Assembly: GCF_002775205.1 (NCBI RefSeq)
Contig: NC_036453.1
Location: forward strand, 3,809,103 to 3,873,102
Source of the DNA: Xiphophorus maculatus
Taxonomy: Eukaryota > Chordata > Actinopteri > Cyprinodontiformes > Poeciliidae
DNA length: 64,000 nt
Reading direction: 5' to 3'
Positions 17,141 to 50,450 of this stretch are shown piece after piece. Position 1 is the first letter of the stretch. Every line of letters starts with the position of its first letter. The notes beneath the pieces were generated by a model that was not told the DNA's origin, did not search any database, and saw only the letters and a list, made by a program, of their open reading frames with translations. Position numbers and translations under genes: made by a program.

Positions 17141-20100
17141 TCATCTTTGTCCTGTAAAGTGATTGAGGAGACTCTGACCCTTCGGACTCTTCTGCTGTTT
17201 TTCAGTAATGAAGGGGAGGGCAACCCGTTCCTTCTGCTCAGTTTTCTGGTAGAAAGGACAGACTTTCAGATGAGCAGAAATCGGAGGTATGTCGGCCATG
17301 TTCCATGAATCCACAGCAGAGAACAGATGACTGAACTCCCACACCTGGAGAGAAAAAGAAGCAGCGTTATGAGGACACCAGCTGTGTTTCTATTACAAAC
17401 GTGTTTGTCGCTATTCTGCTATTGTCCAAAAAAACACAATTTCCCAACTGCAGTGTTTCCCTTATACAAGAAATGCAATTAAAATCACATTTGAATTAGC
17501 TTGCTCACACTTTAAGTCATTAGAAATTATGTCAGTGACGGACATAAATAGTTGCATAAGATTATATTAATAATTCATCCGTGGCATTCATCATTTATCA
17601 GCCAATCAGAGGAGACATGGTGTCTAGTTGGGAGCGGCTGCATGTAGGGGAAATTGTAGTCGCTGATTTTACACATTGAAGCTTTTAATGAACTGTGAGA
17701 GATCTGGTGGAACCAGAGTAAACAAACCAAACAAGTAAACAAACCAAACCATCATCCTCCTTCCGCTTCCTGTCGTCTTCTTCGTTGTTTTCACCAGTAG
17801 TGTAGATGTGAAAAAAGTGTTTCCAGTACAAGTTTCCATTCTATACGGCTGAAAAACCACCTCAGGTTAGCGCAAAAACCTTTTTTATTGAAAAGCGCGA
17901 GTTTTTTAAAAATCAGCGCGTTTCCATTAAGTAAATTTATTTTCATAATTTAAATTTGTGCAACTGTTTGATTAATGGAAGCGCAGCTACTGACAGCAGC
18001 TTGTGGTGGACTGGATGGTTTGTTCTAAGGTAAAGATCTGCTGTTGCTGTATCAACCTTCCAGACGTCTCAGGTCTTCTAGTTCTGGTTCTGGTCTGCTC
18101 TGCGTCCCCAGAAACAGAACCAAATCTGGAACAGACCTCCAGAAAACTACCAAACATCCGAAACACTGAGTTCCTTTAAATCTAGACTAGAAACCCAACT
18201 GGTTAGAGTTCCTTTTGCACAACATGCTGATGTGCAACGGCAAAATGTAATGTTTCAGTTTCTGACTTTGTGTTTTTATGATGTAAAGCATTTTGAACTG
18301 CAGGTTTTTCTTTCTTCTCACAGGTTTGGACTTCCACTTGGCTCTTCCATGTGAGGAGCTCGTCCTCTCCCAGCGGAGCGTCACCATCCCTCGGTCCTGC
18401 AGCAGGGAGGAGCAGACCTGCCTCATGAGGCGGGACACCAGGGCCAGCTGGGACAGGGACTGGCTGTCCAGGAAGCTGGCCATGTGGCACAGCACCTCAT
18501 AGGGCAGCGAGCTCAGCCGGTCCTCCCCGTCTCCAGCTTTGCCGTCCAGAGAGGGAAGAGCGTCTGGACGCAAGTTGAAACACCTCAGCTGCTGACTGTG
18601 AGAAGCAAAGAAAGCTTTGGTCAAACAGGTTGTCCAGCAGCACACTAAGGTTTTAAATAACCTTTGAACTTTTACAGATTTGTCACATTAAAAGGGCAAT
18701 ATTATGTACAATCAACTTTTCAAGGTTTTTAGCATCTTTTCATGTTATTCCCTCATGTTGCTTTGATTCTTTCATTCATGTCTCTATGGCATGAATTCGG
18801 CTGCTCTCACAAAGCGCTGTCTATTTACCCAAAACTCCTCCCCCATTGAGCTCCTCTAGACTAGCCAGCAGCAATTAGCAAACAGAACCCCGCTCATCAT
18901 ATGAATCATTTCAGTCCAACACTCCTAAGAATGGTAATAAACGGCATAATGAGAAGTATTGTTGACATGACGTGTTGAAGGCAGAGCTTCTTAAAGAGAC
19001 AGAGACCCAATTTCAAAGTCAGATTTCCTTTTAGTCATGCTTCATACACCATTATATAACAACTGAAGGAAATATAATTACTTGATTGTGCTATAAAATA
19101 GCACTATGTGCTTGAAAATACATAATACTGCCCCTTTGAAACCAAAGTTTTAAAGATCTTTCTCACATGTGTGGCATGCATTCAGCCACAATTAACCTGA
19201 TACTCTTTAGTGAAACCAAGTGCATTTAAAGATCAGCAGACTTTTAAGTAAAACAAAAACTCCAAGACATAAAGTCAAAAATTACAGAAAATATGTACCT
19301 GCAATCATCTAAAATATTTAAAAGCGAGGTTGTTCTCACTTGTAGGTGACGGTGGCTTTCTGTGTGGAGGGATGAAACCTCCTCTGCCTGTAGGTGCATC
19401 CCAGGTACGCCAGGGGGCACTGCTGTTCAAACCATTCACTCAGACACATCTGGATGTCGCTGTGCACAATCCTGTAAGGATAAAAACAGTTACAACACAC
19501 CGGATATGTGCTTCCACATCTGAACAGTTACATCTCAGCAGAGCAAAACCTAAAAAGCAGCACAACTTCAACATATTTAGGCTCAAGTAAAAGTAAAAAG
19601 TAGCCGTCCAAAACGTTACTCAAGTAAAAGTAAAAAATTATTTGGTAAAACGGCGACTCAAGTACTGAGTAACTGATCAAAAATATCATTTAATATTTAA
19701 AAATTACATCATCAGATGGACCAAAATATAAAGTTAAGTGGAAATTTTAGTAATTTAAAGATGAAAATGACAATAATTAATTTAAGTAACAAAAAATAAA
19801 ATCAGGCAAAATATGTTTTTTTCTAAATCAGTTTCTTTCAATAAAAGACTTGTGAAACTTTAACAAAAACTGCAGGTGTGTGTCTGTGTCTGGTGAATTT
19901 AGGTTAAAACATGTTTGTTTTTCATTCAGTGGGTAGAAAATCCTGAAATGTTACTCAAGAGTAGCAATACTTCAATTTAAAATTAATCAAGTAAAAGTAA
20001 AAAGTACAGCGTAGTAAAATATACTCCTAAACATAAATGTTTTCCACAAAAAAGTATTTTTAGGGAATACTTTTTTGTGGTAGTAACTAGTTACTACTCA

Positions 20101-23100
20101 ACTCAACAATCTTTAGAAAATTTAACAAGAACTTTACAGTGAGCTGAAACCAGATTTATACACTGAGTATTTAGTTTTTTCCTCACATTAAATCAAATTT
20201 ATGTATCCAGTAAATGTAGCTAGTTACTACCCAACTCTTCATCTGAGTACAACACACCTGAAGTGTGTGGCGAACTCTCTGCGGTGGAAGCTGTGACCGC
20301 AGAGGAACGTGAACGCACAGCTGGCTCTGTTGTTCCTGCTGTTTACGGTTTCCGCCTGAAGCTGCAGAAGAAGCTTCAGCGGCCGGTCCGCCATCACTTC
20401 CGCCAAGGTCGTCCTCTGCTTGAAGGGCGATGTGCGGAAAGAGTGCGTCTGCGTGCCAAAGTCCACATACAGCCCGTCTGCTCCCTTTGTCTCACTGATC
20501 TGGAAAAAAATAAGACAATTTACTGAAGTCAGTGATTATTGTGTTCAGCATCTCAACCAAAATGATCAGAAATGGATAGAAACTATCTACATTTACTCAG
20601 ATACATTTACTCGAGTAACTACAATGTACTTTTTACTCTTACTTAAGTAAAACTTCTGGATTCTTTGTTCTTTCTGCGAAGAACAAACATGTTTTAACCA
20701 AGAATTCAAACACACCTGCAGTTTTTGTTAAAGTTTCATAAGTTTTATATTGAAAGAAACTGTTTTCGAAAAATGTTTATTTTATTTTATTTTGTATTTA
20801 TGTTATTTATATGAATTGTTTTCATTTGATCTTTAAATACTAATATTTCTTTATGTTTTGGTCATTCTAATGATTCATTTTGAAATATTAAATGATTGAT
20901 GTTTTGATCTGCCACTCAGTACTTGAGTAAAGTTTTTACCAAATACTTTTTACTCTTACTTTTGACTTTAGAAATATGTTAAAGTAGTGCTACTCTTACT
21001 CAGAGGACGATCGAGTAGCCAAAAGTAAGAATAGCACCACTTCAACATATTTTTATTCAAGTAAAAGTAAAAATTAGCCGTCCAAGAAATTATTCAAGTG
21101 AGAGTAAGAAGTATTTGGTGAAAAGTCTATTCATGTAGTGAGTAACTGATCAAATTATCAATCATTTAATATTTAAAAACTGCATCATCAGATGGACCAA
21201 AATATAAAATATATGGAAATTTCAAATCTGAAAATGAAAATAATTCATTTAAATAACATAATTACATATCTATAAACTTTTTAAACTTTTTGTCTGTTCT
21301 AAATAAATAAACCACAGAATAGCAAAATCAGACATAAGAAACATTTTTCCAAATCAGTTTCTTTCAATATAAAAAAACATCTTAAGACTTGAACAAAAAC
21401 CACAGATGTTGTCTGAGTCTGGTGAATTTTTGGTTAAAACATGTTTGTTTTTCATTCAGTGGGTAGAAAATCCAGAACTCAAGTAAGAGCAGCAATACTT
21501 CATCAAAGTACTCTAGCCAAAGTAGTAAAAATACTCCCAAAAGAACATTTTTTCCAAAAAAAAGTTCCTTAGGTAAATGTATCTAGTTTCTACCCAACTC
21601 TGGTCTTACTTAAGCACATTCTCTGAACCTCTGAACATTTTTGTACCTTGTGACCCATGACTGCCATCTCAGCGTAGCCCAGCAGAGTTGCTTCAGCTTC
21701 ATCTACAAACCAGTCCTCCTCACTGGCTCCCAGGTCTGATGTGTCCACGCTTCGATGTTCAGTCTGCACCCGAGCAGCCGTCTCGTTGAGATGAACCCGT
21801 CTCTTATGACGATAACTTACAGGCACCTTTCAGGAAAAAAGAATAGCTCATTTCATTTTACAAGATAAATGAGATCAGTGGAAAAACCTGTGAAAAGTAA
21901 CATCATTAACTGTAGTTTTCTTGCTTTGGTTGACGAAGGTAAGCTTTGGGAGAATCAGCATTTTAATAGAGCCTTCGAGGTAATCAGCAATTTTATCTAA
22001 ATTTGGTGACATTGTGGAGTTTTCAGAAACAGCAACTTGACATAATTTAATTCATATACTTATATACAAAGAAAATAAAAACAAAGCAAACAGTAGTATA
22101 CTTATGAACTTGTTTCCACACACACAACCCTCTTACATCTATAGGATCATTCAATAAATTACTATTCAAGTTTATGGAAATTCAAATGATAAAGAAAATT
22201 GAAGTTCCAGCTAAGCTCCAGATTTACATTTATAATTATTTTCATTCAATGAAGAAGTTGTTAGCATATCCAAAATTGTTCAAATGCTTCTAAATATTGA
22301 ATGGATACTTTTAACCAAGGTGCTAACCAGCTTTCTGAATGTTTCTTCTCTGTATCTTTATCTTTTCCACCTGTGATTAGCTCAGTCACCCTAATGTTTA
22401 AAATTTCTATGCGTTAACCATTTCATAACCTCCTTGTCATGTAGAATCTGTTTGTTTTAATGCTAATCTAAACTTATTTGTTCATGATGTCGCTTAGATT
22501 TCTTGTCAAATTTGCTGATGATGCTCTTGAATTCACATGATGAAAACTATAAAGTGAGTAAAGATGTCGGCGCGCCACAACAGTTTCTCTCAAACTGTGG
22601 TCCCCGGGCGCCCTCTGGTGGTCCGTGAGGTACTGCATGTAAACAACCGTTAATTTGCCGTTACGTTAGTAGCTCAAAGTGCTTCGCTACAGTTAGCTTA
22701 CCAAGGGATCGCGTTTAAAAATAATAATGGATAATTGGATTAAGGCCTGGCCACTAAAAAGAAAACCTGAAGATGCTGGCGGATTTTTTTGTTTTGTTTT
22801 TGAACATTATTACGACGTAGCACGCAACAGAAATGCAGATCTCGGTCTGCGGCTGTGCTGATTGGGATACATGACGGTGGCTAATAACATTATTTATCTT
22901 GGGCTATCTACTGGCAGAAAGAAAATTATTGTTTTTGCTAACTCAACAAGTCCATTTTTATTTTATTATGATTCTAAATTACAAGTTGAAAGTAAAGAAC
23001 TATTTTGATTTCCATGTGTTTTCTATATCATTGTAAAGCTTAGAATCCATATGTCCAGAATCTGTAAATAGTTCGAAATGACTTGTTCCTGGTTTTACTC

Positions 23101-26100
23101 TGACCAGTCACATTTACAAAACAGCGCCAACCTTCGCGTTAGGTGGCAATGAGACAATGAGTTGAGAGACTTTAATTTCAGGTTGTTTAAGATGTGTTAT
23201 TTCTGAGGCAATTTCAAGTTATTTGGTTTGTGAGGGTTAGTTAAAAGGGGTAAGTGGTTCTTAGCCTGAATAAGTTTGAGAAACACTGGTTTAGACCAAA
23301 CATAAAACTCTGGTTTGGGGTTAATTAACACATTTTTCTGTCAGGATGTGGAGCCTGCAGCTTTTTTGGAGAGTTTGAGAAACACTGCTCTACAGAATTG
23401 TTGGGTTTTTTCTGTGTGAATTTGCCAAACTTGAACTTGTCACCTTGAAAGAGTGCAGCGTCTGGACTGCAATTGGCTCCAGGCTGCCATAGACAAAGTC
23501 TTTCTCCCTGGAAGTGCAGGCCTCAATCTGCCCGAAGGCCAGCAGCATGCGTCCGTGATGCACCATGTACATGTTGTACTCCTGAGGGGTGAGCTCCTGC
23601 CCCAGCCGCTCCAGAACCCCCTCCTGCCACGGGGCCAGGCCCGTCTTACTGGTGTCAGGTGGAGGGCAGCTTCTGGGACTGGTTGTGTCCTGGCGCTCCT
23701 GTTCTGGTGCTTTCTGGCTTCTTCCCTCGTTGGCTAGTTTTTGTTTTTGTTTTGGATTTTCCAAATTCTCCTGAGCAACAGCGCAGGCGCCTCTCTCCAT
23801 GCTGAACATCATCTCAAACAGATTGTACTTCTCAATGTTGATCACTGGAGGTTGTGTAATCCTCTGAGCAGTTTCTTCTGCAGCATGATTTTCAGACATG
23901 CTGCTTACAGGAAGAGCTGCAGAGGGAAACAATTGTAATCTCATTGTAAAACACGTTACAATAAGAAGTTTTTCTGTGGTTTTGTGCTTCAGTTTGAGTC
24001 TCTACTGCAGAAGTGTCAACTTTAATTTCATTTTGGGCCATATAAAAAATCTGAATGTTCTTACAGGGGCGGTTTCAAAGTAACATAAAACAGCTCATTC
24101 TGAAAGGAGTTCAAAATAAACGGACTAAAATCTCATTATCTAAGAGGAATTTTGTGTAAAAGTTGTACTGAACATGTTTCGTAGCCCACAGACCAGTGGT
24201 GCCCAAAGTCGGACCTCAAGGGCCTGCATCCTGCATGTTTTAGTTCTCTCCCTGGTTTAGCACACCTGGATCAAACGATGGCTCCATCTTCTGTCAGTGC
24301 CTAAGAAGAACACTGACATGCTGGAAAGGTTCTTACTACCACCAGGGAGAGAACTAAAACATGCAGGATCCCGGCCCTCGAGGACCGACTTTAGGCACCA
24401 CTGCCATAAACCTAATTTAAGCTGTACAGAAGAAGCTCCTTTTTATGTTTCAGAACCAAGCTGCATTTTGACCAACCTTCACTTGGGTTTTGGTCTTGAA
24501 CACCTCCGACTGCGATCTCCTCTCTGCTCTCCTCCTTTATGTCCTCTTCTTCTTGCTCCATAAGCTCTGGATACAGAGGCTTCATTTTGAGGCGGGCGTA
24601 CAGGTCTGACTGGTCAACTAAAGCCATAGCAACATCCAAAGCCTCTCCGTGTGTCTCTCTTTCCTTCATCATGTTGTCCTGCATGGCGTTTAAGTTATTT
24701 GGGTTTGTGTCATCCACCGGCCAGCGCAGCCACTCCATGGAGCAGCAAACCACGCTGGCCGGACACACCTGCAGGTGAGCCGCCCGCAAGGAGCGGGGCA
24801 GCTGGACCGGGCAGCCGTACTCGGCGTTGAGGCACGGCACCCTCACATTGGGGCACAGCAGCAGGTGATCCTCCTCCTTGCACAGGTGGAAAACCGCTCC
24901 GCAAAGCAGACGGCAGGGAACGAGAGCGCAGCTGGCAGAAGGCTCCACCCGAGCCCTGCAGCGCCGGCTGTAGCAGGAGTCACAGTGGAGATGCTGCCGG
25001 ACCCTGGAGCCGCGAGAACGGTGACTCTGAGAAACAATAACACAAAGAACAGCAGACTGTTAGCAGCAGAGAGAGGAGTTACTAGTTACCTTTACTCAAT
25101 TACATTTACATGAAGTATTTCTACTCTTACTCTTATTTCTACTCTTACTTTTGAGTAAAATTTCTGGATTCTCTACACACTGAATTTTTTAACCAAAAAT
25201 TTACCAGACAGACACACACCTGCAGTTTTTGTTAAAGTTTCATACGTTTTCTTATGGAAAGAAACTGATTTGGAAACATTTTCTTTTGCCACATTTTGTT
25301 ATTTTTTGTTACTTGAATGAATTATTGTCATTTTTGTCCTTAAAATACCAAAAATGTCCACTTAACTTTATGATTTTCTACCCACTGAATGATAAACAAA
25401 CATGTTTCAACCAAAAATCCACCAGATACAGACACACTACCTGCAGCTTCTGTTAAAGCTTTTAATTAAAAAAAACTGATTTGGAAAAAAAATTCTATTG
25501 CCTGATTTTGATATTTTTTATTACTTATACAAGTTATTGTCATTTTGGTCCTTAAAATACCTACATTTCCACTTTTAGCTCCAACTAATTATGTCATTTT
25601 TAAATATTAAATGATTGATAATTTGATCAGTTGCTCAGTACTTGAGTAGACTTTTTACCAAATACTTTTTAAATCTTGAGTAATTTCTGGGAAAGCTAAT
25701 TTCATTATAAAGTATTTTTACTTTTACTAGAGTAAAATGTCTGCAGTCTCTACCATCACTGAATAAAAAACAAACATGTTTTAACCAAAAATCCACCAAA
25801 CACAGACATACAACTGCAGTTTTTGTTATTTTTATTGAACGAAAAACATTTATTTTGCCTGATTTTGTATTTATTTTTTACATATATTAATTATTATCAT
25901 ACCAAAATTTCCACTTAACTTCACAGTTTGGTCATTTGATTAAGTAATTTTGAAATATTAAATGATTAATAATTTTATCAGTTACACAGTAATTGGGTAG
26001 ACTTTTTACCAAATACTTTTTACTTTTTTTCTTGGATGGATACTGTTACTTTTACTTGAGTAAAAATATGTTGAAGTAGTGTTTCTCTTTGTTGAGTTCA

Positions 26101-26206
26101 GTTTATGGGTGAATCTAATGAAAATGTGTGAATTACTATATATGTTTTCAGCTAATTATGACTTGGCACTGTATCAATGCTCAACAAAAAGTTTGTCACT
26201 CACCAT
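17141..26206 (-). CDS. fbxo40: FBXO40-type F-box protein, copy A
   Basis: Eight minus-strand exons join in frame: 26204-26206 (ATG only, from a short exon ending 26226), 24477-25026, 23444-23916, 21647-21826, 20258-20499, 19340-19471, 18322-18595 and 17141-17344; 685 residues (human about 709). In order: TRAF-type zinc finger (CDSCYSRRC, then LCGAVFHLCKEEDHLLLCPN), the FBXO40 segment TGLAPWQEGVLERL and YNMYMVHHGRMLLAFGQIEA (about 290-335), VDTSDLG, RNNRASCAFTFLCGHSFHR, the F-box LSSLPYEVLCHMASFLDS (about 548-595), and the tail SAHLKVCPFY. FBXO40 is a muscle F-box protein of an SCF ubiquitin ligase that targets IRS1 in mammals. Zebrafish also has two fbxo40 genes. The gene is divergent from copy B. 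Two short tracts are nearly identical to B. Confidence 0.92.
17345..18010. other. Intron 7 of fbxo40 copy A, non-coding
   Basis: No exon or strong repeat is recognised here. AAAAGCGCGAGTTTTTTAAA, near 17890, and TGGAAGCGCAGCTACTGAC, near 17978, resemble ends of dispersed fish repeats but are not assigned. Confidence 0.4.
18010..18312 (+). mobile_element. LINE 3' tail (L2/Rex-like) next to the exon 7 splice donor
   Basis: TTCCTTTAAATCTAGACTAG, then TTTTTATGATGTAAAGCATT and TTGAACTGC, resemble the conserved 3' end of fish LINEs (AGCACTTTGAATTGC). The tail stops within about 10 bp of the exon 7 donor of fbxo40 copy A and points against the gene. Confidence 0.6.
18689..19137. repeat. MITE in intron 6 of fbxo40 copy A
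   Basis: Inverted ends: AAAAGGGCAATATTATGTAC at left, and TACATAATACTGCCCCTTTG at right. Length about 450 bp, typical of a common fish non-autonomous DNA transposon. Confidence 0.8.
19570..20110. repeat. R1 MITE copy (intron 5 of fbxo40 copy A)
   Basis: Nearly complete and in reverse orientation: TCAAGTAAAAGTAAAAAGTA, ATCAGATGGACCAAAATATA, AGTTTCTTTCAATAAAAGAC, AACTGCAGGTGTGTGTCTGT, ending GTAGTAACTAGTTACTACTC. A stray end (GTAGCTAGTTACTACCCAAC) is at 20216-20236. Confidence 0.85.
20575..21603. repeat. R1 MITE copies, head to head (intron 4 of fbxo40 copy A)
   Basis: One R1 unit runs forward from about 20575 to 21005. A second in reverse orientation runs from about 21015 to 21603, ending TAGTTTCTACCCAACTCTGG. 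The pair forms a large imperfect inverted repeat. Confidence 0.8.
21840..22580. other. Intron 3 of fbxo40 copy A, nothing recognised
   Basis: AT-rich intronic sequence upstream of exon 4. No additional exon or repeat family was recognised. Confidence 0.4.
22583..23300. repeat. hAT-like MITE (intron 3 of fbxo40 copy A)
   Basis: The left end CAGTTTCTCTCAAACTGTGG and right end AGTTTGAGAAACACTGG are inverted repeats. GTCCCCGGGCGCCCTCTGGT next to the left end is typical for the family. A second right-like end (GTTTGAGAAACACTGCTC) lies at 23372, so part of another copy may be present. Confidence 0.7.
24190..24415. repeat. Short palindromic hAT-like MITE (intron 2 of fbxo40 copy A)
   Basis: The ends CAGTGGTGCCCAAAGTCGG and CCGACTTTAGGCACCACTG are inverted repeats. 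Inside, CCTGCATGTTTTAGTTCTCT is matched by AGAGAACTAAAACATGCAGG. The flanks CCACAGAC and CCATAAAC agree at six of eight bases, as for an aged 8-bp hAT target duplication. Confidence 0.85.
24732..25371. repeat. Left arm of inverted near-identical tract shared by fbxo40 A and B
   Basis: Reverse complement of 28561-29201. In the exonic part (about 290 bp) I count only two base differences before similarity stops at the codons after CTGCTCCATGGAGTGG. The intronic part has a few small indels. The other end stops at GTCCACTTAACTTTAT. Confidence 0.92.
25075..26100. repeat. R1 MITE cluster (intron 1 of fbxo40 copy A)
   Basis: About three R1 units in the same orientation, with TTGTTAAAGTTTCATACG at 25230, a second unit near 25440-25660 and a third near 25700-26090. 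The unit next to exon 2 is shared, in the same relative position, with fbxo40 copy B (28561-28855). Confidence 0.85.
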
Positions 26207-27167
26207 ATTTGACTGATTTTTCTATCCTGAAAGAGAAAAAAACAAGTGAGTTTAGTACTTTAATTTAATTTCTGACACCGACTGAACATTGTGTCATAAA
26301 GCTCAAAACTCCCTCACCGTCTAGCTTCGTCTTTAAAAACAAAACCCAAAATTTGTTCAAATAAATCAGATAACTACATAAATCCGACTGAACATAACTG
26401 AAAATAAGACAAGCAGTTTCTCACTAAATGTTAGTACTTTTAAAGCTATAAACACTTAATAAAAAAATAAAGCAGTGCAACAAATTCAGTTTATGGGGCC
26501 AAATAGTAAACATTTTTCTAAGGTAGCCTGGTTGATCACATCTTAGTTTTTGCAGCTATCCTTCATTCTCAACAAGCATGTGGCGACAGTGGACAGGAAG
26601 GACTCCATTCTGCTGTTACAACTCAGTTAAACCCCAACGGTGTTAAAAAAATGACACCTTTGTGGAAAATTTTAGAACCATTATCCTGGTTTTGTGTTAC
26701 ATTTGAATTATAATCGCATTTAACACATGCAATAATATGCTAATCAGATTTTCACCTGTTTACTTATCTTCTGAATATTCAGTGATTAATGATTAGGATT
26801 CTGATTATTTTGAAACAAACTTATAAAAATCCATGAAAGAATTTTGACATTCTGATTCAGAGCTCTTTGTTTTTAAACAATTGAAATGGAAAATTGAAAC
26901 AATGACTGCTGCTCAGTCTACTGTACAGATCTCCAAACAAACACTAGAACCAGTTAAAATCTTTATCATCTACTCTTAAATTAGCTGCTCAACCCTCGAC
27001 GTCTTGAAATTTAAACAAACTCAAAGACTCGGAGGTGATTTACCAAATCGCCGGCCAGACGTGTCGTTTTGTCTCCTTGGTTTTATAACGTCGCTATCAG
27101 GTCTGCGTTTTGAACTGGCAGGTTAAAATTAGCCAAGGAGCAGTGAGCAGGTTCCCAAGGAGAAATA

Positions 27168-27218
27168 CCCCCCCCCCACCCCAACAACCCCTCCCCACCC
27201 CAACCACCCCAACCAGCG
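27168..27218. repeat. C-rich run, potential G-quadruplex on the minus strand
   Basis: Several runs of three to ten C (ACCCCCCCCCCACCCC, then CCCCTCCCCACCCC and later ACCACCCC) lie within about 50 bp, between the two fbxo40 genes. Confidence 0.8.
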
Positions 27219-27540
27219 TCACGCTGCAGCAGATCGTTTGAAATTTAAAACCTTTTTAAAATCTTTATCCACGTCTAAATTAATGTGAGTTTTATGATCT
27301 GTGACAATAAATGCAACCAATAACACACACAGGAAGTGATATAATGGATTAAATATTGCACTTGTAAATATCAACTGAAGGATCAAATTTTGCTAATAAA
27401 TAATATTTATAATGCAGCAGTAAAAGATTATAAATCTGAATATATTTCCTGATTTAAGAGGTCGAGAGGGCTTGTAACCTAAATATCGCTTCTGACCACC
27501 TGTGTAACATTTCTCAGTCAGGACTCTGCTCTATTTATAA

Positions 27541-27585
27541 CAGCAACACACACACAAACACACACAAAAACACACACACACACAT
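27541..27585. repeat. Imperfect (CA)n microsatellite
   Basis: About 20 CA units with AAA interruptions, about 250 bp upstream of the fbxo40 copy B start codon. Confidence 0.9.
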
Positions 27586-27829
27586 TTGCTCTTTAAAAGC
27601 ATAAGCTGGGCTGCCTGTTTTCTTCTTAGTTCATTCAGTAGGTAGGCTAACAGCTTAATTTAATAATTTCCTTTAATTCTTTTGCTGCAGAAACATTATG
27701 TAAAATGATTTGTTCATATTTATTTTGTTATAAGACGGTTGTACTGAAAGACGGTGAGTAATGGAGTCTTCTTGTTTACACAGATCTACAGCTTCAGATA
27801 CAGAAACCTGCAGACGCCACATTTTAAAG

Positions 27830-30800
27830 ATGGTGAGTTAACGCTTAAATAATAACACTAATCTCTGACTTTGATTCCACTATAGCAGACATTTAAAAAA
27901 AACTTTTAATTTACTTAGCATGTTAATGAATTTTCCTTTAATTAAAAATAAAATCTGACTTTCTGAAGATACATACTAAAATAAATTAGAGTTTGAATGA
28001 ATATTTTTAGAGAAAAGAAGCACATGGTCATCGTGTGCTTCTGTTTATTTTTAATGTCATATTCATTATTGACCTCACAATACAGAATTTTTTATGTTTT
28101 GTAAGTTTATTGCATCAGAAAATTTGGACTTTAAATGAACCTCATGCAAGATAAAAGTAGTTTTAAGGATTTATTTTGGGATTTTTGTGAGGACATGTGA
28201 AAAATAAACTTGGATCTCATTTTGAATCTGTAAAAATGTAAATATTATCTAAAACTTCAGGCTGGAAAAGTGAAGGCTGTGCAGATTTAACTAATTATTT
28301 GCAGCAGGCATGCATCAATACTGGATATTAATATTGCTCTTCTGACCAGTATTTACCAATATTGTATATACTTATTTCAAAACCTTAAAAAAATAACAAC
28401 CATACCGCTGACTTTATAACTGTTTCTATGCTTCAGTTTTTTTTATTTTTATGCATTTTTTAGCTCATTCATTACTTATGTTCAGAACTTTGTTTCAGTT
28501 GTGGATGTTTTTAAATAAAGTAGATCTTCTACATTTTCTACATCATCAGATAGACCAAAATATAAAGTTAAGTGGACATTTTTGGTATTTTAAGGACAAA
28601 AATGACAATAATTCATTCAAGTAACAAAAAATAACAAAATGTGGCAATAGAAAATGTTTCCAAATCAGTTTCTTTCCATAGAAAAACGTATGAAACTTTA
28701 ACAAAAACTGCAGGTGTGTGTCTGTGTCTGGTAAATTTTTGGTAAAAAAATTCAGTGGGTGGAGAATCCAGAAATTTTACTCAAGAGTAAGAGTAGAAAT
28801 ACTTCATAAAAAGTTACTCAAGTAAATGTAATTGAGTAAAGGTAACTAGTAACTCCTCTCTCTGCTGCTAACAGTCTGCTGTTCTTTGTGTTATTGTTTC
28901 TCAGAGTCACCGTTCTCGCGGCTCCAGGGTCCGGCAGCATCTCCACTGTGACTCCTGCTACAGCCGGCGCTGCAGGGCTCGGGTGGAGCCTTCTGCCAGC
29001 TGCGCTCTCGTTCCCTGCCGTCTGCTTTGCGGAGCGGTTTTCCACCTGTGCAAGGAGGAGGATCACCTGCTGCTGTGCCCCAATGTGAGGGTGCCGTGCC
29101 TCAACGCCGAGTACGGCTGCCCGGTCCAGCTGCCCCGCTCCTCGCGGGCAGCTCACCTGCAGGTGTGTCCGGCCAGCGTGGTTTGCTGCTCCATGGAGTG
29201 GAACCGCTGGCCTTCCAACATCGCCTGTTCTCAGCCGCACACCGAGCTGTTAGAAAACCTGCTCAGGGAACGAGAGAGGTTTGGATGTCTGGACCTGGCC
29301 ATAGCTCTGCAAGACCAGGATGCTCTGTTTCACTCCATCAAGATGAAGAAACTGTTCCCGGAGCTGATCCAGACCGCAGAGGAGGAAGCGAGGGAAGAAC
29401 GGAGGCAGGAGGAGGAGATGAAGAAGGAGAAGGAGAAGAAGAAACAGGCTCTCATGGAGAAGGAGGCAGCAGAAAGAGCAGCTGCAAAAGAAGCAAGGGA
29501 CAAAATCTGGGAAGCAGTTAACATGATTAATGTGAATTTCCCTGATGAAAAACAAGATGAGGATGAAGAGGAATATGAAGAAAATCAGCCGATGTTGTCT
29601 CAAGCGGAGAGGGAGGCAATTGCCAGAGCATCAGAAGTGGATGCTGGTCTGCTGGAGAACTACAACGCCTGGGAGCGCATGTTCAGCATGGAGATGGGAG
29701 GCTGCAGGGAATCCGAGGGCACGGCTGCAGCAAGTAGAGGTCAGGCGAGAGGAAGAGGGAAAAGCCTTGGTTCACTGAAGGAGGAGGAGGCAACCTGTGC
29801 TGGTGCAGCAGCATCCACCAGCAGTGCATGTTCCTCCTCTCTTACTGGGAAACCCAAAAAGAAGAGCTTTGTGTACGGAAATCTAGAGCCGATGAAAATC
29901 ATTACTGTGCGCACGTTTAAAATCCCAACCAGCTTCACAGCCAGGCAAAGCCGCATCCGTAACCCGGGTTTCTACAAGAGAGAAAACGTAGCAGTGGACA
30001 CCAGCGACCTGGGTGTGGTGCCAGGTGACATGCCAGTGTGGGAGGAGGTTCAGGTGAGTTGACCTCCATGTCATCATCTGATAGGAAAGGTCTTTTAAAG
30101 GTGCAAAATGATTGCGAAAGCTCAAATGATTACAATCTGATACACTACACAACCACAAAATCTTGAAAAGTTTTTTTAAAATCTAGTTTCTAGTGAAAAT
30201 ATCTTAGTTCATTTGAGATAAGAGAAACAAACTTACAAGTAACTTGTCAGCAAGAAATATGAGCTTGTTTTAAGTAAATAATTTATTAACATTGATGAAA
30301 AAGTACTAGTTTCATCGGTTAGAAAAGAAAAGTTACTTCTGAGTTAGTTTGGTCTTATTTTAAGTGTACTATTTGCACTAGAAAGTAGAAAAAAATACTT
30401 GGTAAGATTTTGTGGTTTTGCCGTGTGGAAGATTGTAAACAACACACTAAAGCACTTTGCAGACATGTCCGTCTAAGCTAGCAGATGAAAGCTATAGCTA
30501 GGCTAATAGTTCGGCAGTAAGTACGTACTGTAAGTACTACATACTGTATTTATCTGAGTATTACACAGAGGTGGGTAGAGTACTAAAAAGTTCTGATCGA
30601 GTAATATTTGTAGTATACTTATATTGTTCATTATAAGTTAGTTCGCAATGAGGCTAGTTCTAAGCTTTGACTAGTTTATTGTTGTCATAGCAACTGCCTA
30701 CTAAGTTCGCTGTCCGTTACAAAGTTCACGGAAGTGCGACGTCAGAACTTTGTATTCCAAACCCAGAATATTCTAGTTGTTCCACATATCGGGTTAAAAG

Positions 30801-33800
30801 CTAAGCGGTAAAGGGCCTTTCAGTCATTTCAAATTAAAGGCAGGTGTGGAAGACTTTTAAAAATGTTTATCTTTTGGGTTGGCCTTTCCTCGCAGGCCTC
30901 CCTGCTGTGCTCCCTGGAGAGGGAGCGGAGGGGTCACCTCATCGCTGAGAGCACGTCCTCGGACAGCCTGCTGATGGATGAAGGCACGCAGACCTACAGC
31001 TTCCTGTCCGCTCCTTTCCGCAGGTACACGTCGCTGGCTGACCTGACAGCTGGAAAACCGCTGGAGCTGCACCTGCAGCTGCAGGTGGAGAGCGTCACCA
31101 GCCGGCACAACAAGGCCAGCTCCGCCTTCACCTTCCTCTGCGGACACACCTTCCAGCGCACGGAATACGGAAAACACTTCAAGTGAGTCTTCTTCATCAG
31201 TTCATCATTTAAATATTTAATAATAAATCCTTCTCTTCCTAAAAAATAAAAAATACACGACTTTTCAGCAGATTTACCAGCACTTCTGCATAGTTTTAGA
31301 GCACCCAAAATTGCACTCTAGTAAGAGTAGAAGTACTTCAACATATTTTACTCAAGTAAAAGTAATAAGTAGCCATCCAAGTAATTACTCAAGAATAAAA
31401 AGCATTTGGTAAAAAGTCTACTCAACTACTGAGTAACTCATCTAATTATTAATCGTTTAATATTTAAAATGACTTAATCAGATGGACCAAAAATATTAAA
31501 TGAAGTGCAAATTATGGTATTTTAATGATCAAAGGTCACAAAAAATAACATTTGTGAAAACACAACTTTCCAAATCAGTTTCTTTGAATTAAAAAAATCT
31601 TCTGAAACTTTAACAGAAACTGCAGATGTGCGTCTGAGTCTGGTGAATTTTAGTTAAAATATTTTATTTGTTTATTTAGTGGGTAGAGAATCCAGAAATT
31701 TTACTCAAGTAAGAGTAATACTTCAAAATAAAATTACTAAAGTAAAAATATAAAGTAAAGTAGCAAAAGTACATTTTCCCAAAAATGTTACTCAAGTAAA
31801 TGTAATTATGTAACTAGTTACTACCCAACTCTGATGCGTTCTGTCTATTTGCCTTTGTTATGGACATGGCCGGTGCAGGAACATCCACAGCGACATTCAG
31901 ATGTGTGTGAACGGCTGGTTTGAACAGCGGTGCCCCCTAGCGTACATGGGATGTACCTACAGCCAGAGGAGGTTTCGGCCTTCCACATTTGAAGCCACCG
32001 TCAACTTCAAGTGAGGAATAAAACATTTTAACAGAAACGTTTATGTCACATTATGATTATAGTAATGTGAACAGAGAGATAAAAATGGAAATTAACAAAC
32101 TCAAACTGCATCACTTGATCACTCATGTCATTTGTGGTAGAAATCAGTTCCTGAGGTGAGAAAAATGAACATGACAGTGAACATAACTGTAGAAGTAAAG
32201 ATACTAAAACACTGTAAAACAAAGCAACACTCCGAGGTTGGTTGTGATGCAGGAGTAACATTGTAGCATAATGTAAAGCTAAAAAAGTCACTCTTAAATA
32301 ATACTGCCCCATTAAACATCTCATTATTTTAGCTCTGTTACTGTTGAAATAATTAGTTTTTCTTTGTTTTGGGCATTATTATTAATTAGGATTACAGTAC
32401 CATTTGATAGAAACATTTTTAGTGAACAAGGTGTCTCCACCACAGATAAAAAAAAAAAATCTCACCTCAATCAAATTCCCCAAATTAATAATTTCAGGTT
32501 AAACGCTTGTTTCTAAAACATGCAGAATAATCATGAACCTATCATTTCTTCGTCCAGACTTCAACATGCAGATAAATATTAACCAAACTGTTTCATCTGC
32601 TTTCAGTAAGGAGCTGGGCTGCTTTGGCCTGCATCCGTCCAGCCCGTTTGCTCAGCCTACAGGTGGAGGTCACACCGAAGGAGGGGAGGACCGGCTGAGC
32701 TCGCTGCCCTATGAGGTGCTGTGCCACATGGCCAGCTTCCTGGACAGCCAGTCCCTGTCCCAGCTGGCCCTGGTGTCCCGCCTCATGAGGCAGGTCTGCT
32801 GCTCCCTGCTGCAGGAGAGAGGGATGGTGACACTCTGCTGGGAGAGGACGAGCTCCTCACATGGGAGAGCCAAGTGGAGGGTGACACACAGGGTGAGTTA
32901 TAACCCAAACATCCAAAGAGTTAAAGAACAAACCCAGGAGGAAACTGTTCCTGTGGACACACAATCCCTCTGCCAGTGCTCCCAGTACTAACTAGACAAA
33001 CCAATCAGAGCCAGGAGGCGGGACTTAGCTCTGCCTTCCTCTTTGCTCTCTGCTACGCTGCTGCTAGCATCGACTGTTGTGAATGCTAAAGCTAGTTAGC
33101 AAAGTCACCAATGGAGATGCTAACAAACCGTCACGACCAGAGGTGGGTAGAGTATCCAACAATTGTACTCAAGTAAGAGTAGCACTATTTAAACATATTT
33201 TTACTCAAGTAGAAGAAAAAAGTAGCCATCCAGGAAATTACTCAAGTAAAAGAGTAAAAAATTATTTGGTAAAACATCTAATCAAGTACAGAGAAACTGA
33301 TTAAATTATCAATTATTTAACGTTTAAAAATTAATCATATGGACCAAAATGCAAAGTCAAGTGGAAATGTTGGTATTTTAATAACCAACATGACAATAAT
33401 TTACATAAGCAACAGGCAAAAGTATTTTTTTTTCTAAATCAGTTTCTTCCAACAAAAAAACAAACTTATGAAACTTTAACAGAAACTGCAGGTGTGTGTC
33501 TGTGTCTGGTGAATTTTTGGTGAAAACATGTTTGTTTTTCATTCAGTGGGTAGAAAATCCAGAAATTTTACTCAAGAGTAGAAATACTTCATAATGAAAT
33601 TACTCAAGTAAAAGTAAAAAGTACAGCATAGTAACAATACTCCTAAAAGTACATTTTTCAGAAAAGTTACTGAAGTAAATGTAATTGAATAAGTGTAACC
33701 TGTTAATATCCAACTCTTTCCTGTTGGGAATGCTAATGCTAAATAGCATAGCCACTGATAATAAATAAGTTTAGTGAAAATATTGAGCTTTGAAAATAGA

Positions 33801-34055
33801 CTAAGAGACTGATAACTTTTACCTTCTGTCCTGCAGGTGTGGCAGTTTAGCTCCCTGTTCTCTCCTGTGGACACCTGGAGCTTCAGAGACGTCCCGTCCA
33901 TCGCTGAGCATCTTAAAGTTTGTCCCTACAACGAGGTCGAGTCCAAGACTGAGAAAATTCGCTTGCCTCGTGTTCGAGAAGAAATTAAACCGAAGAAGAG
34001 CTGCAAAGGTCCCTCGCTGGTCACACTGTTCCAGGAGAAGAGGATCATGATGTAG
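27830..34055 (+). CDS. fbxo40: FBXO40-type F-box protein, copy B
   Basis: Six plus-strand exons join in frame: 27830-27832 (ATG, directly followed by GTGAGT), 28905-30053, 30896-31182, 31879-32010, 32607-32892 and 33837-34055; 691 residues. The zinc-finger region is nearly identical to copy A. After it come NRWPSNIACSQPH, a charged coiled coil (EEAREERRQEEEMKKEKEKK, about 140-185), VDTSDLG, RHNKASSAFTFLCGHTFQR, CPLAYMGCTY, the F-box LSSLPYEVLCHMASFLDS (about 550-597) and the tail AEHLKVCPYN. Exon 2 covers what copy A splits into exons 2-4. The conserved TGLAPW...HFGQ segment of FBXO40 is missing; only the following SFVYGNLEPM remains, after an Ala/Ser-rich linker. It should be an SCF substrate adaptor like mammalian FBXO40. 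A poly(A) signal lies about 200 bp downstream. Confidence 0.93.
28545..28855. repeat. R1 MITE copy (intron 1 of fbxo40 copy B)
   Basis: Reverse-oriented unit with AGTTTCTTTCCATAGAAAAA, AACTGCAGGTGTGTGTCTGT and TCAGTGGGTGGAGAATCCAG, ending GGTAACTAGTAACTCC. It stops about 50 bp before exon 2. Confidence 0.85.
28561..29201. repeat. Right arm of inverted near-identical tract shared by fbxo40 A and B
   Basis: Pairs with 24732-25371; the inter-arm distance is about 3.2 kb. It includes the R1 copy, the 50-bp stretch before the acceptor (CTGCTAACAGTCTGCTGTTC and neighbours, identical) and the first 297 bp of exon 2. Confidence 0.92.
30148..30430. repeat. R4 MITE (intron 2 of fbxo40 copy B)
   Basis: Ends ACACAACCACAAAATCTTG and ACTTGGTAAGATTTTGTGG; the body has ACTTACAAGTAACTTGTCAG, GATGAAAAAGTACTAG and TTATTTTAAGTGTACT, matching the R4 copy at 14969-15362. 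Confidence 0.8.
30560..30890. other. Intron 2 of copy B: R1 edge and unassigned repeat
   Basis: AGGTGGGTAGAGTACTAAAA at 30569 is an R1-like end. The rest carries GTTGTCATAGCAAC (30681-30694), a good RFX X-box match by consensus RYYNYYN1-3RRNRAC. The stretch up to the exon 3 acceptor is otherwise unassigned. Confidence 0.45.
31310..31835. repeat. R1 MITE copy (intron 3 of fbxo40 copy B)
   Basis: Reverse-oriented R1 with TCAACATATTTTACTCAAGT, ATCAGATGGACCAAAAATAT, ACTGCAGATGTGCGTCTGAG, TTTAGTGGGTAGAGAATCCA, ending TAACTAGTTACTACCCAACT. Confidence 0.85.
32011..32606. other. Intron 4 of fbxo40 copy B, nothing recognised
   Basis: AT-rich intron with a short poly-A run near 32449. No repeat family recognised. 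Confidence 0.4.
32990..33140. repeat. Short dispersed element piece (intron 5 of copy B)
   Basis: CAATCAGAGCCAGGAGGCGG and GCTGCTGCTAGCATCG match a common fish non-autonomous element as remembered; about 130 bp, directly abutting an R1 end (AGAGGTGGGTAGAG). Confidence 0.5.
33140..33715. repeat. R1 MITE copy (intron 5 of fbxo40 copy B)
   Basis: Starts AGAGGTGGGTAGAGTATCCA and ends GTGTAACCTGTTAATATCCAACTC-like. It contains the full R1 order including AACTGCAGGTGTGTGTCTGT and ATTCAGTGGGTAGAAAATCC. This is one of the most complete copies. Confidence 0.88.
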
Positions 34056-35598: not shown

Positions 35599-38500
35599 AT
35601 GTCTGGGACCAAAGCACGTAAGTTGTTTATTCCTAATAATTATTACAATTGGGAGCATTTCATTCTGATGGTCTGAGACCTCTTTGTGTTTAAGATGTGG
35701 GATGTTTTGTAGCTTTAATAACTGATTTGATGATGGTTTGCTCAGCATGTGGTGAGTTTACAGACTCTGATTCTGACGACAAAGAGGAACAGACAGCGAT
35801 GGTGTGTCTGGAGACAGACCTTCACGATGGACAGTAAGAAAAAAACGTTATGATCTGGAAATGTAAAAGTCTGGTTTAACGTGTAGCCCAGGGGTGTCCA
35901 AAATGCATTGGTGGACCTGGGGCTGATTTTGTGCGGCCCCCAGTTGCAATTCAAAAATTATACAAATTTGGCCGATAGACGGAGATGGAGACTTTTAATT
36001 TGTAATTTTCTTACAATGGAAAATGTAAAGTACAATTCAGTGTTTGCACTTCTATAGCCAAGCTTTAACAAAAGGTAAAACCATTTGCTGCACCCAAATC
36101 AGCTTTGATTTAATTTATTAAACTTGACTAAATATAGCAAACGTTTTGAAAGTGAGTTGGTAAACTCTGGGTTGAAGCTGCATGGGGCTTTAAATCTTGA
36201 TGGTGGATTTTTATTTCTGTCAACAATTTAAGGATTTCTTTTAATGTTTTGAAAAGTGGACTTCCTACATACGGTGATACAATTATATAAAACACAAATC
36301 AAAAGTAAAATGGATGGCAGTGCCTTGACAGTGTCGAAGTTTTTAATCTGATTCGTGATTCTTTTGTTTGTCAAAAAACTTTTTAAGCATTACAGCAGTG
36401 GTTATGTGCTTTAAACATTGTTTTGTTACCTGCAATATAGTGTATTTGGATAATAAACAAAACTAACCACTTCTGTGTTTGTTCATGTGTGACGTGAGGA
36501 TGATGGAAGTTGATATTGGTCGCCACAGTGTGCTATTGACGCGCTGCGATGGAAAATATAGCGCCATTTCAAACCAGTGTTCACACTATGGCGCTCCGCT
36601 TAGCAAAGGTAAGGAAGAAAACAACAAAAAAGCAGAAAAGATAAAGTCTCCAGTTAAAACGTTGCTTTCTGGTGTGTTTAATTTACCTTGCAGCCGTGAT
36701 TTTTGTCGTTTCTGCTCAGGCGTTATTTCAGGACACAAAGTGCGCTGCCCGTGGCACGGCTCCTGTTTTAATGCTCTGACAGGAGACCTGGAGGAGTTTC
36801 CTGGGATCGACTCTCTACCTTGTCACAAGGTACAAACCGGCCGGTACATCCACATTTAGCTCAACATTTGCTGCTTATAATTTATTTTCTTCTTTTCAGG
36901 TCAAAATTCAAAACAGCAAAGTGTATGTGTCCATAAATAAAAAGGTTGGTGAGTTAATTAATTGTTAAAAATGAAATTAAAATTAAAATGGCATCTCTAC
37001 CAATTGATGTGAAAAATAAACGTTTTGTGCCACATTCAGGACATCCGGCATCAGAAAAGGTTGCAGCGAATGGGAGCTGCAGTACCAGGAGTGAACCACA
37101 CAGTTTTACTGCTGGGAGGAGGTTGGTGGCCATATTTAAAGTGCAAAGCTTAAAAAATAAATAACCAAATCCTGCTGACTCAGCAATGAACATAAAACAT
37201 CTCAATGAAAGAAATAAATCCAGTCAGAAACTATCGCCATTGGGTTTGTTGTTTGGGTCTCATTTTGAGCCAAATTATTGACCCATAAATCTCAGCTAAT
37301 TCTTTTTATGAAGTGATGAATAGAAGAAGTTTTTGATTTTGGCCTAATTTAGTTATTTATCAATGAATTGAAAGACAGTGACAGGGTCAAACATATTCAT
37401 CCCTTTTCCGTTAAATAAAATCTAATTGTGTTAAATCAAGATGTGAATTGATTCTGCCTCTCAACACGGCACGGTTGTGTGTTGGTAAGATTCTTTCTGC
37501 CTGCGTGTGTGTAACGCGTGTTTCCTGTCAGGAGCTGCTTCGCTGATCTGTGCTGAGACGTTGCGGCAGGAAAACTTTGGCGGCAGAATCATCATGGCCT
37601 CCAGAGACGACCTCTTACCTTACGACAAAACCCGACTCAGCAAGGTCATATAAGCATTTGCATTGATCCTTTCTTTTCATTTTCAGGACGGAAAGCATAG
37701 CTAAATAAGTTTTTTATTGTGTATAATTCAGGTAATGAATGTGTTGAGTGACACTATTGTGCTGAGGAGGATGGAGTTTTTCCATCAGTACGACATTGAG
37801 GTTTGGCTCCGGAAAGAAGTGAGTACTTCTCCCCAAATGTACATTTTCCTCACAGTCTGGCAGCTAAAAAAGTTTAATTTATAATATGGCATAAAGAAAC
37901 TGAGCCACATGACTTGGTAAAGTTTTCTTTTTCTGTTTTTTAAAGGCAGTATCGGTGGACACAGAGAAGAAGACGGTCACTTTTGATGATGGTTTAGTCC
38001 AGAGCTACGACCAGCTGCTTCTCTCTACTGGCTGCAGGTCAGGACAACTTTTACATTTTTAACAATAATCTACCATGAGGAATTTATTGTCATTTTTATT
38101 TATTTTATTACAAAGAAGCACAATTTCACTTCTATTTTCAAGTTTACAAGTAAAAAACCCCAGAAAACTTTAGATATTTCAGGAAAATTAAGTTAGTTAT
38201 GCAACATTTCCAACCGAATGGAAACAAAACTAGATCTAAAAATATATTGTTGTTCATTTTAGTATCAATCTGCACTGGGAAAAATTTTTCCATGGAAAAA
38301 TCTTTCATTTTCCTTTAGCTTCTCCATATTTCACAAAGACTAAAACATCAACATATTTAGTTAGGATTTTATGTGACAGATCAATATGGTGCACACAGAC
38401 ATAAAGTAGAGAATGGCCGTAAAGTAGAAGGAAAATATTCACAATTTTCCAAATTTTCATAAATAAAACCGGAAAAATGTGTCATACAAATGTGAATTTA

Positions 38501-49365: not shown

Positions 49366-50450
49366 GGGACGGCTGGTATAAATGGACTAGTAGGGCTAAG
49401 CCCTCCCTGATATTTACAATAAAGTTGTGAAAATAAAAAGCTTAAAATTAAATACCTAAAAATAAATACATTTTAGAAATAATGTATCATATTTTGTGAA
49501 ATTTTCAACAAACCTGGTGTCAAACCGCCTGGGGAAAATCCCAGGGTCTTTTTGAAGTGCTAACTTCTGACAGCCCCATTCAGCGTAACGTCTGTCACGG
49601 CTCAGAATGATTGACAGGCGTCTAGCCACGCCCCCTCGGTTTGCGGCTCATTGGGGCTAATTTTGGTCATCCTAGGGTCAGCCCAGGGTCAGCCCAGGGT
49701 CAGCCCAGGGCCAGCCCAAGGCCAGTCCAGGGCCAGTCCAGGGCCAGTCCAGGGTCAGCCCAGGGTCAGCCCAGGGTCAGCCTCAGTCAGCCCAGGTTCA
49801 GCCCAGGACCAGCCCAGAGTCAGCCCAGGGTCAGCCCAGGGTCAGCCTCAGTCAGCCCAGGTTCAGGCCAGGGTCAGCCCAGGGCCAGTCCAGGGCCAGT
49901 CCAGGGCCAGCCCAGGTTCAGTCCAGGGCCAGTCCAGGGCCAGCCCAGGTTCAGCCCAGGGTCAGCCTAGGGCCAGCCCAGGGCCAGCCCAGGGTCAGCC
50001 TAGGGCCAGCCCAGAGTCAGCCCAGGGCCAGCCCAGGGTCAGCCCAGGGCCAGTCCAGGGCCAGTCCAGGGCCAGCCCAGGTTCAGTCCAGGGCCAGTCC
50101 AGGGCCAGCCCAGGTTCAGCCCAGGGTCAGCCCAGGTTCAGCCCAGGGTCAGCCCAGGGTCAGCCCAGGTTCAGCCCAGGGTCAGCCCAGGGTCAGCCCA
50201 GGGCCAGCCCAGGGCCAGTCCAGGGTCAGCCTCAGCCAGCCCAGGGTCAGCCCAGGGTCAGCCAGCCAGCTGCCACAGGATTCATCCAATCAGGATGGAC
50301 TTGCCTCGAGCTCGAGTGTGTGTGGGCGTGGTTTGGCGTAGGCTGAGAAGGAGCGATGGCGAGCAATATTAGCAAAAATGAGGTGGATTATTTAACCTTT
50401 TTGCGTCCCAGAAAAGTCGTTGGAGTGAGTTTATCTTTAAATAAGGTAGG
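49366..50450 (+). mobile_element. Probable hAT-type transposon end with internal minisatellite
   Basis: CAGGGACGGCTGGTATAAAT at 49366 looks like a hAT end. The next bases (TAGTAGGGCTAAGCCCTCCC) are familiar from autonomous fish hAT elements. After the minisatellite comes ATGGCGAGCAATATTAGC at 50356, opening a 23-codon frame (MASNISKNEVDYLTFLRPRK) that ends at a GTGAGT donor. It could be a transposase first exon. No catalytic domain and no second end were found, so this is tentative. Confidence 0.4.
49672..50270. repeat. GC-rich minisatellite, 11-bp unit
   Basis: The unit CAGGGTCAGCC and variants (GGCCAGTCC, AGGTTCAGCC) repeat about 54 times. Variants form higher-order blocks, for example AGGGCCAGTCCAGGGCCAGC followed by CCAGGTTCAG. 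The absence of stop codons in some frames results from the repeat. Confidence 0.97.

Follow-up and report, generated by a model that had tools for sequence, protein, structure and literature searches.

Two homogenized modules in a divergently transcribed fbxo40 gene pair of Xiphophorus maculatus and their concerted evolution in acanthomorph fishes

The window analyzed here is a stretch of 64,000 nucleotides of Xiphophorus maculatus (RefSeq assembly GCF_002775205.1, contig NC_036453.1, positions 3,809,103 to 3,873,102, forward strand). It contains two neighboring, divergently transcribed, and intact genes, fbxo40.2 on the minus strand (gene A) and fbxo40.1 on the plus strand (gene B), a mirror-oriented pair predicted to code for ubiquitin-ligase adaptors. 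Gene A (17141..26206; 685 aa) has coding exons at 26206-26204 (the ATG), 25026-24477, 23916-23444, 21826-21647, 20499-20258, 19471-19340, 18595-18322, and 17344-17141, and gene B (27830..34055; 691 aa) has them at 27830-27832 (the ATG), 28905-30053, 30896-31182, 31879-32010, 32607-32892, and 33837-34055. Both have open frames, and their internal exon borders carry AG/GT sites. The gene A protein, identical to P0121, which is named Xiphophorus maculatus F-box only protein 40-like, contains zf-TRAF_2 and F-box_4 domains. In the gene B protein, these domains span residues 13 to 104 and 551 to 664, respectively, and its best matches are fbxo40-like proteins of Gambusia affinis (96%) and Poecilia latipinna (95%). 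The N-terminal zf-TRAF_2 and the F-box_4 near the C terminus place both genes in the fbxo40 family (FBXO30/FBXO40 type), whose mammalian member FBXO40 is reported to serve in muscle as an SCF adaptor for IRS1 (PMC7672578).

The 5' parts of the two genes carry a pair of inverted arms. The arm in gene A (24732..25371, minus strand) comprises the end of intron 1, made up of a repeat fragment and a short nonrepeat stretch, and codons 2 to 100 of exon 2, which code for the zinc-finger module; its inverted counterpart in gene B (28561..29201, plus strand) has the same composition. BLAST pairs 24719-25377 with 28557-29212 on opposite strands, and a global alignment of the arms gives 614 identical positions in 622 aligned columns, with 8 mismatches and internal indels of 14, 18, and 2 bp. 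The longest exact block common to the arms is 321 bp, which rules out chance as the source of their identity. An earlier sequence-only reading had drawn attention to these arms, and its coordinates, their reverse-complement near-identity, and its count of two exonic differences all held up. The two differences lie in codon 81 (TTG/TCG; Leu/Ser) and codon 83 (GCG/GCA; silent), and the other six mismatches all fall in the intron and repeat part. The abrupt stop of identity inside exon 2 was likewise borne out, with the edge directly after Trp100: codon 101, the first beyond it, is CTG (Leu) in A and AAC (Asn) in B. As had also been claimed, the remainders of the two proteins are strongly diverged, with a dS of 0.013 in codons 1 to 100 versus approximately 1.65 between the modules and approximately 2.9 after the F-box. 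This low divergence at synonymous and noncoding positions, expected of a conversion tract, was established in X. maculatus, the one species from which DNA was compared. Because the tract includes intron and repeat sequence, coding constraint does not explain the identity of the arms. The inverted duplication itself spans whole genes, and the 640-bp arms are only the portion of it that is still alike.

The repeat within the arms had been described as a copy of an R1 transposon. An interspersed repeat is indeed present, with matches in the window that merge into 19 intervals, the arms among them. No result here identifies it as an R1 LINE, and we take "R1" as a label of the earlier reader's own. 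The fragment in the gene A arm (25081..25371, minus strand) directly abuts another repeat unit at its distal edge, whereas the one in gene B (28539..28850, plus strand) follows the repeat consensus past the arm edge without a break. The A copy is 92.3% identical to that of the B arm and at most 83.9% identical to the other matches listed; missing from it are about 13 nt found in eight of the nine other aligned copies. Since the repeat runs unbroken through the arm edge in B and forms a chimera there in A, gene B would have been the donor of the latest tract in X. maculatus. The chimeric junction in A coincides with an AAAAT microhomology. Over time, exchange probably runs both ways.

A second inverted, near-identical tract, missed by the sequence-only reading, lies outside 24732..29201 and corresponds to the F-box. 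It occupies 18333..18528 on the minus strand in gene A, within the exon 18595-18322, and 32683..32878 on the plus strand in gene B, within the exon 32607-32892. These islands, which cover approximately codons 549 to 613 in the penultimate exon, are 96.9% identical (6 mismatches in 196 bp), with a dS of 0.064. The F-box tract and the zinc-finger arms are one phenomenon.

Concerted evolution predicts that A and B should be alike by species within the tract and separated by gene elsewhere, and we examined this prediction at the protein level across fishes. An initial set of 54 acanthomorph pairs was picked by eye from the best 120 of 705 and the best 120 of 855 matches, the database rows being representatives of 90% clusters, with those of source "lgn" left out. 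Another 15 acanthomorph pairs from the same lists were added later and agree with the first, except for a low zinc-finger value in Monopterus (A-B identity of 0.54, possibly from a bad gene model). Some pairs combine two congeneric species, namely, those of Cyprinodon, Fundulus, Takifugu, Labrus, and Tachysurus among the 72 pairs used for trees and that of Pampus among the additions. In X. maculatus, the exchanging copies are linked within the one window. Elsewhere, the contigs listed for A and B have equal lengths, consistent with one contig, in 38 of the 54 other acanthomorph pairs; a length is missing for one or both genes in 14, and the lengths differ in 2, one of which is a two-species pair (all counted by eye).

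The prediction was confirmed. In 70 acanthomorph pairs, the identity of A to the B of its own species was 0.936 in the zinc-finger module, against 0.841 with permuted partners (z = 30.0), and 0.900 against 0.833 in the F-box (z = 21.9); none of 2,000 permutations reached either observed value. Without the five acanthomorph two-species pairs, these scores change little (z = 28.6 and 21.0), and the 15 initially passed-over pairs alone give z values of 9.4 and 7.6. The flanking regions of the same 70 pairs have little or no own-species excess: it is small and significant in residues 161 to 430 (z = 2.1), in residues 431 to 530 (0.642 versus 0.637; z = 3.1), and in the shoulder of the F-box at residues 531 to 548 (z = 8.7). 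Own-species A-B identity exceeds orthologue identity in 5,466 of 5,936 comparisons for the zinc-finger module and 4,647 of 5,936 for the F-box, versus none of 5,936 for residues 101 to 430, none of 5,936 for the C terminus, and 123 of 5,936 for residues 431 to 530. The edge is sharp here too, with the excess dropping across 55 acanthomorph pairs from 0.053 at residues 81 to 100 to 0.000 at residues 101 to 120. It has also moved on occasion, as the A-type Leu101 occurs in the B proteins of Odontesthes and Centropristis, followed in the former by TDD.

Residues private to a genus tell the same story. Across 13 species, A and B have 19 such residues in common in the zinc-finger module; the F-box contributes another 10, from 9 species. 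Residues 101 to 430 hold a single one, against 270 found only in A and 220 only in B. The tree of the middle region separates A (78 rows) and B (74 rows) into two clades with a support of 99 each and one label change. In the module trees, A and B of the same species are sisters, many of them weakly supported, in only 27 of 71 testable species for the zinc-finger module and 23 of 68 for the F-box, with 51 and 42 label changes, respectively. As short alignments resolve trees poorly, we do not take these label changes as counts of conversion events and rely instead on the private common residues and the partner permutations. Homogenization is not uniform: in Cyprinodon, a congeneric rather than a conspecific pair, the identity between A and B in the zinc-finger module drops to 0.78.

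Outside acanthomorphs, 16 ostariophysan pairs have a weak own-species excess in the zinc-finger module (z = 4.6) and none in the F-box (z = -1.5). Fused gene predictions in five otophysan records, three with A-then-B markers in order and two consistent with it, suggest that here A precedes B on one strand. A weak concerted signal in the zinc-finger module despite this apparent same-strand order indicates that inverted orientation is not required. An unlinked third fbxo40 (copy C), compared in nine species, showed no exchange, with own-species z values of -0.4 and -1.8 for the zinc-finger module and 0.5 and 0.2 for the F-box; in those nine species, A versus B gives 6.9 and 6.5.

On the basis of these observations, it is very probable that the arms represent a recent interlocus gene conversion tract between old paralogs, in a process repeated across many lineages of fishes and now confined to two islands. 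In X. maculatus, exon, intron, and repeat DNA has been copied, and protein comparisons point firmly to species-by-species homogenization of both modules in acanthomorphs. The proposal of recent or repeated conversion in the sequence-only reading is thus supported by the protein test but was incomplete, in that the F-box is a second homogenized module in acanthomorphs. Near-identical inverted segments are a classical cause of misassembly, and one arm might be a duplicated or misjoined copy of the other. This is very improbable given the eight substitutions and three indels that distinguish the arms, the separate second tract 14 kb apart, the presence of the same zinc-finger module in the A and B types of Xiphophorus hellerii and Gambusia, which are separate records, and the same pattern in 70 acanthomorph pairs from many assemblies. 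Strong shared purifying selection without DNA copying has just as little left to recommend it: both modules are recognized domains, and their identity is also high across species (0.85 for the zinc-finger module and 0.83 for the F-box), but the likeness of synonymous sites, intron, and repeat contradicts it for X. maculatus, and neither the genus-private residues common to A and B nor the higher scores of own over permuted partners fit it. A single recent partial inverted duplication that pasted exon 2 into the other gene, with no continuing exchange, would account for the intron and repeat in the arm and its abrupt edges but is scarcely credible, as neither the F-box island nor the species-specific homogenization in dozens of other fishes follows from it, and one replacement of homologous sequence is effectively a conversion event.

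Under gene conversion, a break in one copy would be repaired from the neighboring copy on the same DNA or on the sister chromatid, and each repair would transfer a few hundred bases. Beyond the islands, the two genes may now be too diverged to pair. Selection on common interaction surfaces is the main candidate for why only two islands have stayed alike, and a need to preserve matching SKP1-binding and zinc-finger surfaces in both proteins might help keep these islands convertible. A more elaborate version, which we regard as doubtful, is that the islands stayed open through most of acanthomorph history since both proteins needed the same surfaces while their middle parts choose different substrates, that neutral parts falling below the pairing threshold fixed the edges (e.g., at codon 101), and that a switch from same-strand to head-to-head order may have opened the F-box island.

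The conversion process itself is known; what is found here is two islands recurring over a deep fish phylogeny. Going by the portions of the published accounts available to us, a close likeness is to primate SIGLEC11/SIGLEC16 (PMC5701461), which are also head-to-head paralogs, about 9 kb apart, with N-terminal-region exons converted repeatedly per primate lineage and conversion reaching into noncoding DNA; that case concerns one region in primates only, whereas the fbxo40 pair has two separate islands and a signal across acanthomorphs. Another teleost paralog system shares module-limited homogenization and raised GC3 in the converted part but consists of large clusters with homogenized 3' parts of variable exons rather than a single divergent pair. 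In Xiphophorus and other livebearers, conversion has been discussed for the LWS opsin duplicates (PMC3087554), which include inverted tail-to-tail neighbors; these are younger, and a comparably old two-island pair is not described in the portion available. The same process homogenizes teleost paralogs in a study of interlocus gene conversion in 164 duplicated genes (PMC10503786), which uses a genome-wide codon model and from whose main text "fbxo," "F-box," and "tandem" are absent. The hsp16 and hsp70 genes of Caenorhabditis (PMC3966223) likewise undergo conversion between adjacent, oppositely oriented paralogs, but these are whole small nematode genes, unlike the domains of otherwise diverged genes seen here. 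We found no earlier account of gene conversion in fbxo40.1/fbxo40.2 in the open-licence PubMed Central literature. With the same two modules and the same edges in many species, the pair offers a natural experiment on how conversion and divergence partition a gene, with the unlinked third fbxo40 as a built-in control, and can be used to test the causes of tract edges, selection versus mere sequence identity as the reason that islands stay open, and the effect of gene orientation. The zinc-finger and F-box parts mislead when trees or orthology calls of teleost fbxo40 genes are based on them.

Both zinc-finger arms fall inside CpG-island-like stretches (24711-25120 and 28811-29310), and recombination hotspots occur at CpG islands in swordtails (PMC5519329). 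Since many other parts of the window are also CpG-island-like and the F-box island has a low CpG observed/expected ratio, a CpG-associated hotspot as the cause of the zinc-finger island is only a guess. As expected of GC-biased gene conversion, although high GC3 can have other causes, GC3 in gene A of this one species is raised in the islands (140 of 165 codons) compared with elsewhere (318 of 519; Fisher p = 8e-9).

The divergent neighbours in the window, gene A (minus strand, 17141..26206) and gene B (plus strand, 27830..34055), both retain intact frames and splice sites, and their proteins, of 685 and 691 aa, respectively, each possess zf-TRAF_2 and F-box_4 domains. The gene A product is identical to P0121, a database protein annotated as F-box only protein 40-like of Xiphophorus maculatus, and the database names of relatives assign gene A to the fbxo40.2 type and gene B to the fbxo40.1 type. 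Alignment bore out the claim of near-identical inverted arms (24732-25371 and 28561-29201), with 614 identities and 8 mismatches over 622 columns, internal indels of 14, 18, and 2 bp, and a longest exact block of 321 bp. The sequence-only reading was right about these zinc-finger arms but lacked a second island, the F-box tract (18333-18528 and 32683-32878), with 6 mismatches over 196 bp. Two introns, following exons 25026-24477 and 23916-23444, interrupt the middle region of gene A (window 24477-21647), where gene B has a single unbroken exon of 1149 bp (28905-30053).

Codon counting (NG86) between the X. maculatus genes gave a dS of 0.013 for codons 1-100 (1 synonymous difference over 77 sites) and 0.064 for the 65 F-box codons (3 differences over 49 sites), against 1.65 in the stretch between the modules and about 2.9, i.e., saturation, 3' of the F-box codons; exons 3-4 are intermediate (0.94 and 0.35). 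GC3 is higher in both islands (zinc finger, 0.80-0.81; F-box, 0.91) than elsewhere (0.52-0.72); it is likewise raised in fugu protocadherins (PMC1852091).

Had there been no exchange since the old duplication, A would be equally close to its own B and to the B of other species. Using proteins from three database searches, we found by permutation across 55 acanthomorph pairs that own-partner identity is 0.943 versus 0.855 permuted in the zinc-finger module (z 25.6) and 0.895 versus 0.827 in the F-box (z 17.7). Addition of 15 acanthomorph pairs at first passed over raised these values to z 30.0 and 21.9 (70 pairs); the added pairs alone gave 9.4 and 7.6, with 0.4 for residues 161-430 and 2.8 for the C terminus, where A-B identity reaches 0.87 in one of them, Cynoglossus (P0227/P0100). 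A shoulder precedes the F-box at residues 531-548 (z 8.4 with 55 pairs and 8.7 with 70). Outside the islands, the 55- and 70-pair z values are -0.8 and 1.8 for the C terminus, 1.3 and 0.4 for residues 101-160, 2.0 and 2.1 for 161-430, and 2.8 and 3.1 for 431-530. The minor excesses there are real by this test and amount to 0.001 to 0.005 in identity, versus 0.095 for the zinc finger and 0.067 for the F-box (70 pairs). Among 16 ostariophysan pairs, the zinc-finger module gave z 4.6 and the F-box no own-partner excess (z -1.5). Megalops (P0259/P0320) differs in pattern, with 100 of 100 residues identical in exons 3-4 (residues 431-530) and an F-box identity of 0.97; in this pair and in that of Cynoglossus, the tracts lie at other positions.

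The third fbxo40, a single copy at a separate site (in X. hellerii, its contig differs in length from that carrying A), served as a control. Across the nine species with all three copies, neither the A nor the B of the same species shows an excess of identity to it in the zinc-finger module (z -0.4 and -1.8) or the F-box (z 0.5 and 0.2), and A versus B in the same species gives 6.9 and 6.5.

Clustering by gene outside the tract, as predicted under concerted evolution, was recovered: in the tree of residues 101-430, 78 A and 74 B rows form two clades, each with support of 99 and with one label change. Both clades contain the tarpon Megalops; hence, the duplication is older than the point at which the tarpon lineage diverged from the rest. 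For the companion prediction of clustering by species within the tract, the zinc-finger tree joins the two copies of a species as sisters in 27 of the 71 species that could be tested; the corresponding counts are 23 of 68 for the F-box and 0 of 72 for the middle region. Support in both island trees, which derive from short alignments, is frequently weak.

Genus-private residues common to A and B point to independent events in the same islands: among 55 acanthomorph pairs, 13 share 19 such residues in the zinc finger and 9 share 10 in the F-box. Residues 101-430 have a single one, versus 270 private to A only and 220 to B only, and none occurs in 431-530 or 614-691.

The arm takes in the end of intron 1, including a fragment of a repeat matched at 19 merged intervals within the window. 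The two arms are 92.3% identical over it (gaps counted), versus 74.9 to 83.9% for the other listed matches (arm B excepted), and both lack a stretch of ~13 nt present in eight of nine other aligned copies, the ninth being unaligned there; together, these features indicate that the repeat was inserted once and then copied. At the distal edge, the repeat consensus continues for ~20 bases in gene B, and gene A switches to a different repeat unit at an AAAAT microhomology. From this edge structure, we infer that in the most recent X. maculatus event gene A received sequence from gene B. Other cases appear to run from A to B. Leu occupies position 101 in 51 of 54 acanthomorph A proteins, and Asn does so in an equal share of B proteins (51 of 54); the A-type Leu occurs in the B proteins of Odontesthes, which adds TDD after it, and Centropristis, and may be read as an A-to-B tract extending a few codons further. 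In the F-box, Poecilia latipinna B has the A-type Asp594 and Arg601, suggesting A-to-B exchange, where Xiphophorus and Gambusia B have Glu and Cys. Taken with the arm edge, these cases suggest that exchange runs both ways. Five otophysan predictions (the fused records P0078 and P0240-P0243; related protein, P0353/P0357) join A and B into a single product that begins with A. In these fishes, the two genes may lie in tandem on one strand, whereas those in the window are divergent.

The mechanism would be homologous repair templated by the neighbouring copy; conversion occurs with the copies in either orientation, as stated in PMC3966223. In mammalian muscle, FBXO40 acts on IRS1 as an SCF adaptor (PMC7672578); for the fish copies, this role is putative. 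The coincidence of the two islands with the two recognised domains suggests, as a hypothesis, selection for common binding surfaces, and the middle part of the proteins may choose different partners. The closest case found is SIGLEC11/16, head-to-head genes with N-terminal exons repeatedly converted in primates (PMC5701461); the fbxo40 pair goes beyond it in its second island, broad range of fishes, stable edges, and unlinked control copy. We found no prior description of conversion in this pair among the open-licence papers covered by the search.

Elsewhere in the window are a tandem array at its edge (1-1416; about 11 copies of a 129-bp unit), an 11-bp minisatellite, GGTCAGCCCAG, at 49665-50263 (about 55 copies) in which more than one reading frame stays open over a long stretch, and, downstream of gene B, coding sequence for a Rieske [2Fe-2S] domain (36467-36856).
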